From: an uncultured Chlorobiaceae bacterium
GTDB lineage: Bacteria; Bacteroidota; Chlorobiia; Chlorobiales; Chlorobiaceae
DNA: 34,424 bases
NCBI GenBank assembly: GCA_903942355.1
Contig: CAJAOR010000241.1
Span: 1 to 34,424 of the forward strand
Direction: 5' to 3'
Each line of letters starts with the position of its first letter. Position 1 is the stretch's first letter. The position numbers and the translations under genes are program-made. The notes below the pieces were generated by a model. The model was not told the DNA's origin. It ran no database searches and saw only the letters and a program-made list of their open reading frames with translations. Shown here piece by piece: positions 3,911-34,424 of the stretch.

Positions 3911-4540
3911 ATGAAAAAGAAATTATTGTTGCCTTTATTGCTTGCTGGTATGTGGGCCACACCAGCGATGGCAGCTAATACTTACGTCAGCGGCTCTGTT
4001 GGTTTGGGACTGCTTAATAATGCCGACGCCAGTGGCCCTGGTTTCACCCTTGATAATATTTTTGAATATGGCGCAGGGGTTCCGTTTGGTGTTGCTGTCG
4101 GGTACAAGTTTGATGAGTATCGTATTGAAGGAGCTGTTGGCTATCAGACTCATAGTGTGGATAAAAGGTTAGGGGTACCTGTGCCTGATGCTAGTGCTGC
4201 GGATGTGTCAATTTGGTCATTCATGGCCAATGGATATTATGATGTCAACATGAAAGATTCCTCCGTATCTCCATATTTGACGGCCGGTCTTGGTCTTGCT
4301 TCAGTTTCAGTGAGTAGTGTTAGTCATTCTTATGACAAAAGTGTATTTGCATGGCAGGTGGGAGCCGGCGTTGGCATCAAGGCGTCAGAGCACGTTGTCG
4401 TTGATCTTGGCTACCGTTATTTCCAGACGGCGAATATAGCCGTTGATAATATGGCCCTTATTCCTGAGCATGGTGTTGGGCCAGTTGATCTTACTCGTTC
4501 TGGAAGCAACATTCTGGCTGGTGTTAGGTACAACTTCTAA
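3911..4540 (+). CDS. Outer-membrane beta-barrel protein, duplicated copy A
   Basis: This 209-residue protein begins with a clear signal peptide (about residues 1-21, ending PAMA before ANTYVSG). It continues as alternating short strands and loops ending in GVRYNF; a terminal Phe preceded by aromatic/hydrophobic alternation is the usual recognition signal for outer-membrane barrel assembly. Size and pattern fit an eight-stranded OMP_b-brl/OmpX-type barrel. Copy B (5028-5651) is its near-identical paralogue. Differences concentrate at residues 42-56, 82-87, about 136-142 and 178-193, which look like loops, while stretches such as DVSIWSFMANGYYDV are unchanged. The start is shared by both copies (AATGATCTGAAAAA then ATG) and lacks a strong Shine-Dalgarno. 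The ligand or function is unknown; it may be structural or a surface receptor. Confidence 0.85.
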   Translation: MKKKLLLPLLLAGMWATPAMAANTYVSGSVGLGLLNNADASGPGFTLDNIFEYGAGVPFGVAVGYKFDEYRIEGAVGYQTHSVDKRLGVPVPDASAADVSIWSFMANGYYDVNMKDSSVSPYLTAGLGLASVSVSSVSHSYDKSVFAWQVGAGVGIKASEHVVVDLGYRYFQTANIAVDNMALIPEHGVGPVDLTRSGSNILAGVRYNF

Positions 4541-5027: not shown

Positions 5028-5651
5028 ATGAAAAAGAAATTATTGTTGCCTTTATTGCTTGCTGGTATGTGGGCAACACCAGCTATGGCAGCTAATACTT
5101 ACGTCAGCGGCTCTGTTGGTTTGGGACTGCTTAATAATGCCGACGCCAGTGCCCTTGGTGTCACCGTTGATAATATTTTAGAATTTGGCACGGGGGTTCC
5201 GTTTGGTGTTGCTGTCGGGTACAAGTCTGATGAGTATCGTATTGAAGGAGCTGTTGGCTATCAGACTCATGGTGTGGATAAAAAGTCAGGGGTACCTGTG
5301 CCTGATGCTTATGCTGCGGATGTCTCAATTTGGTCATTCATGGCCAATGGATATTATGATGTTAACATGAAAGATTCCTCCGTATCTCCATATTTGACGG
5401 CCGGTCTTGGTCTTGCTTCAGTTTCAGTTAGTATGAATAGTTATTCTGATGACAAAAGTGTATTTGCATGGCAGGTGGGAGCCGGTGTTGGCATCAAGGC
5501 GTCAGAGCACGTTGTCGTTGATCTTGGCTACCGTTATTTCCAGACGGCGAATATAACCGTTGATATGCCTGTTTCTGGGCATGGTGTTGTACCAGTTGAT
5601 CTTACTTGTTCTGGCAGCAATATTCTTGCTGGTGTTAGGTACAACTTCTAA
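5028..5651 (+). CDS. Outer-membrane beta-barrel protein, duplicated copy B
   Basis: This 207-residue paralogue of the 3911-4540 product has an identical 21-residue signal peptide and the same C-terminal GVRYNF assembly signal. Substitutions and a two-residue length change fall mainly in predicted loops: SALGVTVDNILEFGTG replaces SGPGFTLDNIFEYGAG, SMNSYSDDKS replaces SSVSHSYDKS, and DMPVSGHGVVP replaces a longer loop in copy A. Nearly identical DNA over long coding stretches, next to a diverged leader, suggests recent duplication or gene conversion with relaxed or diversifying change in loops. It has its own terminator and candidate promoter, so it is probably expressed independently. One cysteine (in TCSG near the C-terminus) replaces an arginine of copy A. 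Exact function is unknown. Confidence 0.85.
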   Translation: MKKKLLLPLLLAGMWATPAMAANTYVSGSVGLGLLNNADASALGVTVDNILEFGTGVPFGVAVGYKSDEYRIEGAVGYQTHGVDKKSGVPVPDAYAADVSIWSFMANGYYDVNMKDSSVSPYLTAGLGLASVSVSMNSYSDDKSVFAWQVGAGVGIKASEHVVVDLGYRYFQTANITVDMPVSGHGVVPVDLTCSGSNILAGVRYNF

Positions 5652-12428: not shown

Positions 12429-12617
12429 GGGAACGCCGAGCTCCAGCTCGGCAGAAAAAGGGGATAATGTGCTGAACTCCAACTCGGCAGAAAAGGGGCT
12501 AATATGCCGAGCTGGAGCTCGGCGTTCCCGGGGCAGCTTTTGCTTTGAGAGATGGTTATAATTGCGGCAGAAAGGAGGATGATATGCCGAGCTGGAGCTC
12601 GGCGTTTCCGGGGCAGA
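12429..12617. repeat. GC-rich palindromic repeat cluster (four copies, REP/MITE-like)
   Basis: Four copies of an 18-base palindrome lie between the convergent methyltransferase and terC genes: 12435-12452 (GCCGAGCTCCAGCTCGGC), 12471-12488 (imperfect), 12506-12523 and 12586-12603. The last two carry GTTCCCGGGGCAG or GTTTCCGGGGCAG on the right; the first carries the mirror CCGGGAAC on the left, so copies 1 and 3 form a larger inverted repeat. Spacers share GGCAGAAAAGGGG and TAATATG-like words, which suggests repeated amplification of one unit of about 50-80 bases. No transposase is nearby. The hairpins could end transcription from both sides, but there is no T-run, so this is a repeat first and a possible terminator second. 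Confidence 0.85.
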
Positions 12618-26245: not shown

Positions 26246-27919
26246 ATGATTGGTATTCTTCTTTTCTGGTTTGCCTTCAGTCCGGTTCCCTCCGTTCCGG
26301 TAAAACCTGCAACTGCTCAGCAAGAGCAGCTTCAGTCACAGCGAGAGCTTCCGGTTGGCACGACAGAAAAGATTCATGAACGCCTTAGCCGGCTGATGCA
26401 GCAGAAGAGTTACGAAGGCGGCACTGAACGGGCGCTCTTCAATATCCGGCTTCAGCGGTTCTATGCTGCAAGAGGCTTTCAGCCTGTATGGGCAAAGCGG
26501 ACGATGATTGCTGAACTGATTGCTGCGGTTGAGGAATCGGCTGATGACGGCCTTGATATGGCAGACTACCATATCAAAGAGATCAGGCAGATGTACAGCA
26601 AGCCGCCTGCAACTCCTGAACTGGCGGCCTGTTATGATGTTTTTTTGACCGATGTTTTTCTGACCTTTGCCGGTCATCTCCGTTATGGCAAGGTTGACCC
26701 CGAAACGCTTGATACGCACTGGAGCGTCGGTCATGCCAGAAATGGCAGTGTTATTGAGCACAAGCTGAACAATGCCATTGCCACAGCCCAGATTGCTACT
26801 GCGTTAAAAGAAATTCGATTGCAGCATCCAAAATACGATCTGCTGCGCAAAGGGCTGGCACGGTATCGCACCATTGAGCGCGAAGGCGGTTGGCCGGTTT
26901 TGGCGGAAGGAGTGAAGCTGCAAGAGGGGTCAAGGGAGAAACGTGTCGGCATGTTGCGTCAACGGCTCAAAGTGTCGGGTGATATTGCGGCTCTGAATAC
27001 GGATACCTCAACGGTCTACAACAGGGAGCTTGCTGATGCTGTCAAACGGTTTCAGAAGCGGAACGGTATGGAGGCTGACGGTGTGGTTGGAGCGTCGACC
27101 ATCCGTGTCATGAATATTCCTGTGGCGCGTCGTATTGATGAAATCCGCATCAATCTTGAGCGGTGCCGATGGTTTTTAAGTGACCTCGAACCGACCTGCA
27201 TCATGGTCAATATCCCCAGCTTTGCCCTGCAGTATATGGAAAATGGTCACCAGCGTTGGAGTACCCGGGTTATTGTCGGAAAACCGAAGCGTGAAACTCC
27301 GCTCTTCAAGGCTGATATGCAGTACGTTATCCTCAATCCCCAGTGGGTCATCCCGCCAACCATTCTTGACAAGGATGCCTTGCCCGCTCTTCGCAAAAGC
27401 AGCTCTTATCTCAGTCGCAAAAATCTGAAGATTATTGCCCAGAACGGCGGTGTTGTGGCTCCTTCATCGGTCAACTGGTCACAGTATTCGGCTGCGAACT
27501 TTCCCTACCGCCTGCAGCAAAGTTCAGGAGATCACGGCGCACTGGGCCGGATCAAGTTCCTGCTTCCGAACCGCTATATTGTTTACCTGCATGATACGCC
27601 AAGCAAGGAACTGTTTGCCGAGAGCAAAAGAACGTTCAGTTCAGGGTGTATCAGGGTACAAAATCCTCTGGATCTTGCGGCTCTGGTGTTGCAGGACAGT
27701 GTGCTCTGGAGCAGAACAAAAATTAATGCCGCAATCAACACCGGAAAAACAAGAATGGTCACTCTTCCGAAACGGATTCCGGTCTATATTTTGTACCTGA
27801 CAGCCACGGACGAAGGTGATGAACTGCAGTTCCGAGACGATGTATACAACCGCGATGATCAGGTCTTGAAGGCGCTCGACAAACCGCTCCAATATAAAAT
27901 GGACAGTTGCGGCTTGTAG
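26246..27919 (+). CDS. L,D-transpeptidase, LdtD/YcbB type
   Basis: This 557-residue protein has a hydrophobic N-terminus (about residues 1-18), a helical scaffold region, a peptidoglycan-binding repeat (LADAVKRFQKRNGMEADGVVG, about 265-285) and the YkuD catalytic domain. The catalytic pair is His449 in YLHDTPSK and Cys468 in FSSGCIRV. In Gram-negative bacteria these enzymes make 3-3 crosslinks in peptidoglycan, often under envelope stress. The layout (N-terminal scaffold, PG-binding, YkuD) matches YcbB. It begins 15 bases after the YkuD_2 gene and ends just before a bidirectional terminator. Confidence 0.9.
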   Translation: MIGILLFWFAFSPVPSVPVKPATAQQEQLQSQRELPVGTTEKIHERLSRLMQQKSYEGGTERALFNIRLQRFYAARGFQPVWAKRTMIAELIAAVEESADDGLDMADYHIKEIRQMYSKPPATPELAACYDVFLTDVFLTFAGHLRYGKVDPETLDTHWSVGHARNGSVIEHKLNNAIATAQIATALKEIRLQHPKYDLLRKGLARYRTIEREGGWPVLAEGVKLQEGSREKRVGMLRQRLKVSGDIAALNTDTSTVYNRELADAVKRFQKRNGMEADGVVGASTIRVMNIPVARRIDEIRINLERCRWFLSDLEPTCIMVNIPSFALQYMENGHQRWSTRVIVGKPKRETPLFKADMQYVILNPQWVIPPTILDKDALPALRKSSSYLSRKNLKIIAQNGGVVAPSSVNWSQYSAANFPYRLQQSSGDHGALGRIKFLLPNRYIVYLHDTPSKELFAESKRTFSSGCIRVQNPLDLAALVLQDSVLWSRTKINAAINTGKTRMVTLPKRIPVYILYLTATDEGDELQFRDDVYNRDDQVLKALDKPLQYKMDSCGL

Positions 27920-28029: not shown

Positions 28030-28323
28030 TTACTTTTTAGGAGCAAAAGAAGAGGTGACGTTCTGGAAAACCTGGCCGACAGTATTGAGGACGTTGCCAA
28101 CAAGGTCCGAAGATGTTTTGACGGCACTGTTAACAAGTTCTGAAGAGGTTTTGACCGCACTGCCAAGAAGATCCGAAGATGTTTTGACAAGAGGCTCAAT
28201 AACCTGTCCTGCTGCCTTGATTCCAAGGTTCAACAGATCAAACTGCTGCTGGGCAAGTGATCCGACGGTTTTCAGAAGATTGTTGAAAGCAACTGAAAAA
28301 TCATTGATTGATTCGTTCGACAT
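28030..28323 (-). CDS. csmB: Chlorosome envelope protein, CsmB-type, with internal 11-aa repeats
   Basis: This 97-residue protein matches the CsmB/CsmF family of chlorosome envelope proteins. It begins MSNES, is Ala/Ser/Val-rich, and ends with the characteristic TSSFAPKK. The described CsmB of other Chlorobium is about 75 residues; here the central section carries three units of 11 residues (VKTSSDLLGSA, VKTSSELVNSA, VKTSSDLVGNV at 46-78), so the extra length equals two units (22). The protein coats the chlorosome surface, which holds bacteriochlorophyll. The likely source is duplication of one 33-base unit. No Shine-Dalgarno is visible. A bidirectional terminator lies just downstream. Whether this is the main CsmB or a paralogue (CsmF) cannot be decided without the rest of the genome. 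Confidence 0.85.
   Translation of the reverse strand: MSNESINDFSVAFNNLLKTVGSLAQQQFDLLNLGIKAAGQVIEPLVKTSSDLLGSAVKTSSELVNSAVKTSSDLVGNVLNTVGQVFQNVTSSFAPKK
28090..28188 (-). repeat. Three tandem 33-bp repeats inside csmB
   Basis: Three in-frame units of 33 bases code for VKTSSDLLGSA, VKTSSELVNSA and VKTSSDLVGNV. The shared DNA words include GAAGATGTTTTGAC and GAAGAGGTTTTGAC on the plus strand. Confidence 0.9.
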
Positions 28324-28683: not shown

Positions 28684-29424
28684 ATGAAATCAACCCTGAC
28701 AAGAAGTGCCGGTGTCCTGCTTCTCTCAACACTTGCACTCGTATCCGGCTGCTCCAAAAAATCTGATTCTGCAAAACCGGGAAGTGCGACTGAATCATCA
28801 GTCAACTCAAAGCCCAGACGTTACGAGATGCAGTCAGGTATTGTTTACTATGAACCACTGGTGATTATGGGGATAAAGAGTGTATCGACCCTTTACTTTG
28901 ATGATTACGGGCGCAGGGAGAGCCGCGAGAGCGTGACGGACTCGGAGATCATGGGCATGAAATCGCATGAAAAAAAGGTGGATATCACGGATGGCGATTA
29001 TATGATCTCCTATGAGCTCGAAAAAGTTGTCAATGGGAAGGATGAGACGAGCAAGGTGGCGACAAAAACAGATATCAGAAAGTTCAGGGAGATGGCCATG
29101 AAGATGGGCAATGGGCTTGATCCGGAACAGATGAAAAAGGATTTTGACTACCGCGAAGAGGGGAGTGAAGTTGTTGCCGGTGTTACCGGTACAAAATATT
29201 CCGTCTCGCTGAGCAAGGAGAAAAACACTCAGAGAGTATACGGGGTGCTCTATAAAAAAATAGCTCTCAAGACAGAAATGGGAGGCATCATGATCAAGGC
29301 CGCAAAGATCGAGGAAAATGCTTCTGTTCCCGCCTCAAAATTTGAGGTACCGGCAGGCTATACTATCAGGGAGGTCGATTTGGAAAAAGAGATGGCTGGT
29401 CCACGCAAAAGCGGCAACGAATAA
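28684..29424 (+). CDS. Lipoprotein, unknown function
   Basis: This 246-residue protein begins with a lipoprotein signal peptide whose lipobox is LVSG|C with Cys23 as the lipidated residue. The mature part is charged and soluble: GIVYYEPLVIMGIKSVSTLYFDDYGRRE, then VDITDGDYMISYELEK, and GVLYKKIALKTEMGG near the end. I do not recognise a domain; the pattern of a repeated IVYYEP/LYFDDYG core may be beta-rich. Lipid anchoring suggests the periplasmic face of one of the membranes. It is followed by an outer-membrane barrel gene 239 bases on, which has its own leader. Confidence 0.7.
   Translation: MKSTLTRSAGVLLLSTLALVSGCSKKSDSAKPGSATESSVNSKPRRYEMQSGIVYYEPLVIMGIKSVSTLYFDDYGRRESRESVTDSEIMGMKSHEKKVDITDGDYMISYELEKVVNGKDETSKVATKTDIRKFREMAMKMGNGLDPEQMKKDFDYREEGSEVVAGVTGTKYSVSLSKEKNTQRVYGVLYKKIALKTEMGGIMIKAAKIEENASVPASKFEVPAGYTIREVDLEKEMAGPRKSGNE

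Positions 29425-31085: not shown

Positions 31086-34424
<3,339 letters not shown>

Follow-up and report, generated by a model that had tools for sequence, protein, structure and literature searches.

The window, a 34,424-nucleotide stretch of DNA of an uncultured Chlorobiaceae bacterium, encodes a 97-residue protein in which one 11-residue unit is repeated three times in tandem. Judged by family resemblance and gene order, it is a third, lineage-specific paralogue of the CsmB/CsmF family of chlorosome envelope proteins at its own conserved locus, and not CsmB. The repeat expansion is well supported, affects a paralogue from a known family, and lies within a wider pattern of 11-residue growth. 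The gene, its units and its neighbours are listed in Table 1; the neighbour gene names given there and below (L,D-transpeptidase, metH, pstS, etc.) are our own reading of the sequences.

Table 1. Features of the window around the csm gene.
Feature	Position	Strand	Remarks
L,D-transpeptidase-like gene, convergent with csm gene	26246..27919	+	syntenic in most orthologous loci
Strong hairpin, then U-runs, in the gap between two convergent genes (likely bidirectional terminator)	27973..28018		fold -33.9 kcal/mol, z -5.2; consensus scan
csm gene, 97-aa CsmB/CsmF-family paralogue, judged not a CsmB orthologue	28030..28323 (stop codon included)	-	ORF, family and locus comparison
Unit 3, SAVKTSSDLVG	28096..28128	-	extra; absent from 75-aa orthologues
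Unit 2, SAVKTSSELVN	28129..28161	-	extra; absent from 75-aa orthologues
Unit 1, PLVKTSSDLLG	28162..28194	-	present in every orthologue
Putative lipoprotein gene, divergent from csm gene	28684..29424	+	syntenic in most 86/97-aa loci, also in L046 and L047
metH-like gene, locus marker	31086..34349	-	also adjoins 75/77-aa orthologues

The protein starts with MSNES and ends with FAPKK, and its units 1, 2, and 3 comprise residues 44–54, 55–65, and 66–76. The three in-frame 33-base units reported in the earlier note are borne out by the ORF, by Tandem Repeats Finder, and by shuffles. Tandem Repeats Finder places a 33-bp array of 2.8 copies at 28095–28188 with a score of 132, the top of 14 rows in the window. 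Pairwise identities among the three units amount to 23/33, whereas 5000 shuffled versions of the protein never exceed 12; with the unit length left free between 5 and 20, the score is 2.09 per position compared with a shuffle maximum of 1.4 (500 shuffles). At the DNA level, the units are identical to each other at 22, 26, and 27 of 33 positions, compared with 11–13 of 33 for the following 33 bases. The repeat is thus genuine and far above chance. Because a second 97-aa version, 98% identical, exists in another genome of the genus, an assembly artefact is unlikely. The two 97-aa genes are separated by a dS of about 0.2, and their repeats differ by seven synonymous and one nonsynonymous substitution. 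Their dN/dS is 0.045 in the repeats and 0.045 in the remainder, which means that both parts of the gene are under strong purifying selection.

The window protein has no significant family match in searches of Pfam, NCBIfam, and the PDB. It is, however, homologous over its full length to the proteins of the CsmB locus (alignments A1 and A2) and is 44–65% identical to family members at other loci (A1). Invariant positions of the family are N3, D8, Q25, P44, K47, and two glutamines near the C terminus (A1, A2). Among the genomes searched, the family is restricted to the chlorosome-forming green sulfur bacteria, being present in 86 of 86 Chlorobiaceae genomes and in 0 of 24 genomes outside the family Chlorobiaceae (rest of the order and phylum); CsmA is encoded in the window's genome as well. 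CsmB/CsmF envelope proteins have a mass of about 7.5 kDa and about 75 residues (PMC3175400), a size that the window protein exceeds. This mismatch does not exclude homology since 12 orthologues at the same locus have 75 residues; length simply varies within this locus. The window's genome, which is 77% complete, contains at least four family members: the window gene, a 75-aa protein on contig C76, another of 75 aa on C173, and a CsmF-like protein of 105 aa on C18. Elsewhere, several CsmB-family matches are clustered on each of three contigs (G016:C46, G005:C71, and G033:C13), and G016 holds 11 such matches in total.

Synteny tells three loci apart. Locus 1, marked by a phosphotransferase and a nucleotidyltransferase, holds the C173 gene (L032) and is found at 31 other fetched loci, including those of Chl. 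ferrooxidans, P. luteolum, and C. chlorochromatii; those of its proteins that were read have 73–75 aa. In complete genomes of the sister genus, it encodes MSNGTNIDVAGAINT... at 1.93–1.95 Mb of about 2.2 Mb. CT2054 is annotated as chlorosome envelope protein B in C. tepidum (PMC12285230). Lying at about the position expected for CT2054, the locus 1 protein fits CsmB/CT2054, an assignment made by position and sequence; the second member in the sister genus (MANESGN...APKQ) would by inference be CsmF. Locus 2 (pstS ... gph) holds the C76 paralogue (L031). Locus 3 is that of the window, in which the csm gene is located between the L,D-transpeptidase-like gene on one side and the putative lipoprotein gene and metH on the other, and it is common only to the orthologues of the window gene itself. 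The neighbours that define the csmB locus are absent beside the window gene, which therefore does not qualify as a CsmB orthologue, and its product is 44% identical to the C173 protein (A1). As the 75-aa protein of C173 holds the conserved CsmB locus in the same genome, the window gene is best assigned to a separate paralogue. Of the earlier description as an enlarged CsmB, family membership and repeat expansion stand and the name falls: a separate 75-residue CsmB elsewhere in the genome, which the earlier note had counted as evidence against its claim, is in substance what C173 provides. Its other counter-case, a uniform length of 97 aa among the relatives, is not what is seen, as one relative has 97 aa and the others have 86 or 75–77.

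Rfam gives no match in the window. At some distance from the csm gene, the window contains two tandem outer-membrane–like β-barrel proteins (3911–4540 and 5028–5651, both + strand) that are identical at 183 of 209 aligned residues and in their N-terminal signal-like stretches. An intergenic 35-bp repeat of 2.5 copies with the palindromic motif GCCGAGCTCCAGCTCGGC lies at 12435–12523.

The 26 orthologues at locus 3 form a ladder of unit number. One unit gives proteins of 75 aa (12 genes) or 77 aa (L057 and L059), two units give 86 aa (10 genes, L036–L045, of which L036 and L042 both come from one MAG and each of which contains just one of the window units 2 and 3), and three units give 97 aa (the window gene and L035). 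The arithmetic of the earlier note, by which 97 and 75 residues differ by exactly two units, holds, with one-unit orthologues mostly having exactly 75 aa. An L,D-transpeptidase match is found in 24 of 25 fetched loci, and only an HD gene in L048. In a tree of the flanking genes, L047, a one-unit locus of 75 aa, pairs with the two 97-aa loci as their sister, and the main 86-aa clade adjoins this group; support is 100 for these groupings and 88–89 deeper. Because a 75-aa locus is placed beside the 97-aa loci with the 86-aa clade next to them, the copy number at locus 3 has changed repeatedly. The tree fits three changes either way, whether the 86- and 97-aa states arose by independent gain or by gain plus loss.

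Two further family loci show similar growth. The locus 2 paralogue has 74–75 aa in most species, including the window's genome. In relatives of the 86-aa clade (L115–L123), it reaches 86, 87, 98, 108 (four loci), and 120 aa by increments of an 11-residue unit of about GQLLQSATGTA, which is unlike the window unit; single-residue differences within this series occur near the C-terminal IP(A/V)KK. CsmF-like proteins have 74–75, 77 (L154), 79, 83, and 105 aa. The longest form (G000:C18, L162:1501–1818, + strand) contains a 22-residue (2×11) tandem duplication identical at 57 of 66 nucleotides, a step that takes the protein from 83 to 105 aa. Since a similar step is found at these two other loci, growth by 11 residues appears to be the main way in which the family alters its length. 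Eleven is not the sole step tolerated, as csmF orthologues also show length differences of 4 and 8 residues (75, 79, and 83) and trial inserts that come close to complete turns of the helix (7 and 14–15 or 18) keep the periodicity described below about equally well. The idea of a constant total of extra residues over the three expanded paralogues per genome was rejected, the totals ranging from about 30 to 74. Another repeat protein, of 231 aa with 27-residue repeats (VQGMISSVSSTTGQLIDGVTSTINSES), is encoded at G000:C74 (L034:1015–1710, - strand). It is perhaps CsmH-like by size, Pfam gave no identification for it, and it was dropped as a further example of 11-residue growth since its period of 27 is not a multiple of 11.

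In the family core, hydrophobicity has its peak period at 99°, compared with 98.2° for an 11/3 helix, so that a unit inserts three turns and leaves the hydrophobic face pointing the same way. The periodicity power is 15–19 in members of 75–97 aa and 22 in the 120-aa form, with shuffle maxima of 7.5–9. For the 11-residue periodicity with a continuous hydrophobic face, the power is 19.0 compared with a shuffle maximum of 8.05. The mean hydrophobicity of 40 aligned 75-mers is autocorrelated at lags of 7, 11, 22, and 29, and the phase of the hydrophobic moment is nearly constant at 19–33° through the units and the C-terminal part. Among trial inserts no longer than 13 residues, the periodicity is best preserved by one of 11. 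AlphaFold predicts two helices for the canonical 75-mer (5–40 and 45–71), split around the EP motif, and for the window protein helices 3–52 and 57–93, with a break at 53–56 inside the repeats, which counts against the reading favoured below. The confidence of both models is low (pLDDT 63 and 65; pTM 0.32 is given together with the pLDDT of 63), too low for a fold search.

Csm proteins are located in the chlorosome envelope, a protein–lipid monolayer (PMC3175400), and 11-mer helices are known to coat lipid surfaces, the longer ones targeting better (PMC5889406). Together with this lipid-monolayer envelope, the periodicity, the constant phase, and the models suggest helices that lie in the monolayer. 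The reading we favour as probable is that the family consists of amphipathic helices that coat the lipid monolayer of the chlorosome and evolve in length by steps of 11 residues, with the window gene encoding a third CsmB/CsmF-family protein. Each member would form a long amphipathic α-helix with a hydrophobic stripe repeating about every 11 residues per three turns (hendecad), most likely lying flat in the envelope monolayer with its hydrophobic face down, although a stable helix of this amphipathic kind might just as well pack into a coiled coil or a bundle. In the window gene, one 33-bp unit directly after the conserved EP motif would have been duplicated in tandem; the second helix would gain 22 residues, that is six turns, while its hydrophobic face stays in register. 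With its greater length, such a helix would be expected to have a stronger hold on the surface and to occupy a larger area per molecule, and envelope coverage or chlorosome size could be tuned in this way. That the protein is located in chlorosomes, binds lipid, and affects their size or shape is predicted from these features. The altered surface packing that the earlier note expected from the expansion is plausible, and the phase analysis gives this idea a specific form. A bolder version is tentative: green sulfur bacteria might tune the chlorosome coat through the number of hendecads that several proteins of the CsmB/CsmF family contain, much as length is tuned in perilipins, and this number might be an adaptation to the size of the chlorosome or to lake habitats with little light.

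Neutral replication slippage, by which 33-bp units come and go without functional effect because inserts of whole turns are tolerated, is the rival with most in its favour and is still unlikely. Tandem 33-bp DNA repeats are slippage-prone, copy number differs between close loci (97 aa compared with 75 in L047), and the 86-aa genes fill one clade. However, the repeat codons are as constrained as the remainder of the gene, and copy number is steady across that clade and between the two 97-aa genes despite their synonymous divergence; comparable growth at three loci points the same way, although neutrality of the copy number itself is compatible with all of these observations.

It is improbable that the paralogue coats another inclusion or membrane, as a phasin-like granule protein or a protein of outer-membrane vesicles or the envelope. 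Its neighbours do resemble cell-envelope genes, CsmB is listed in a proteome table of outer-membrane vesicles (PMC12285230), and sub-threshold matches to Phasin_2 reach E-values of 0.0036–0.05. Yet its nearest relatives throughout are CsmB/CsmF-family proteins, the family keeps to Chlorobiaceae among the genomes searched, and phasin matches under the curated cut-off are expected for any amphipathic helix. The phasin match (PF09361) scores 14.8 bits against the Pfam curated cut-off of 24.9, and matches to FliH and FliI are likewise sub-threshold and of the amphipathic-helix type. Least credible of all, to the point of being nearly discounted, is that the window gene is CsmB itself, enlarged. 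The start, the APKK end, and the length arithmetic agree with this, but synteny contradicts it: the conserved CsmB locus is occupied by a separate 75-aa protein here and elsewhere, and the window locus is a different one that only its own orthologues share.

The orthologues with one, two, and three hendecads, together with a second locus with up to four extra, provide a natural ladder that bears on how CsmB and CsmF proteins are arranged on the chlorosome and determine its size and shape. It is a ready test of whether these proteins coat the monolayer as amphipathic helices and whether their length matters. If so, bacteria would have arrived independently at the 11-mer strategy known from the coats of lipid droplets and lipoproteins. 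Within the limited coverage of the open literature searched, no report of repeats in Csm proteins or of this paralogue was found.

Compared with known systems, the window protein shares with CsmB (C. tepidum CT2054, Q46383) the MSN/MAN start, the EPL.KT motif, the APKK end, and a helical amphipathic core. It differs in its locus, in being 22 residues longer, in having three tandem units instead of one, and in being confined to some members of the genus. CsmF and its likely orthologues (G000:C18 and L154) belong to the same envelope motif family and show comparable length growth, whereas they belong to another sequence group, with about 28% identity across the region that aligns, and have another repeat unit and locus. 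The pst-locus paralogue L031 is 63% identical, and its versions in relatives lengthen by 11-residue steps to 120 aa; its unit GQLLQ..TGTA, however, is located closer to the C terminus, and it is unexpanded (75 aa) in the window's genome. Perilipins, apolipoproteins, and α-synuclein also contain 11-residue repeats that form a continuous amphipathic 3-11 helix, a likeness for which no homology is claimed. In perilipin 4, surface binding is set by the number of repeats and droplet targeting by the length of the 11-mer helix (PMC5889406). These proteins act on eukaryotic lipid droplets, lipoproteins, and vesicles, whereas the window protein is predicted to act on chlorosomes.
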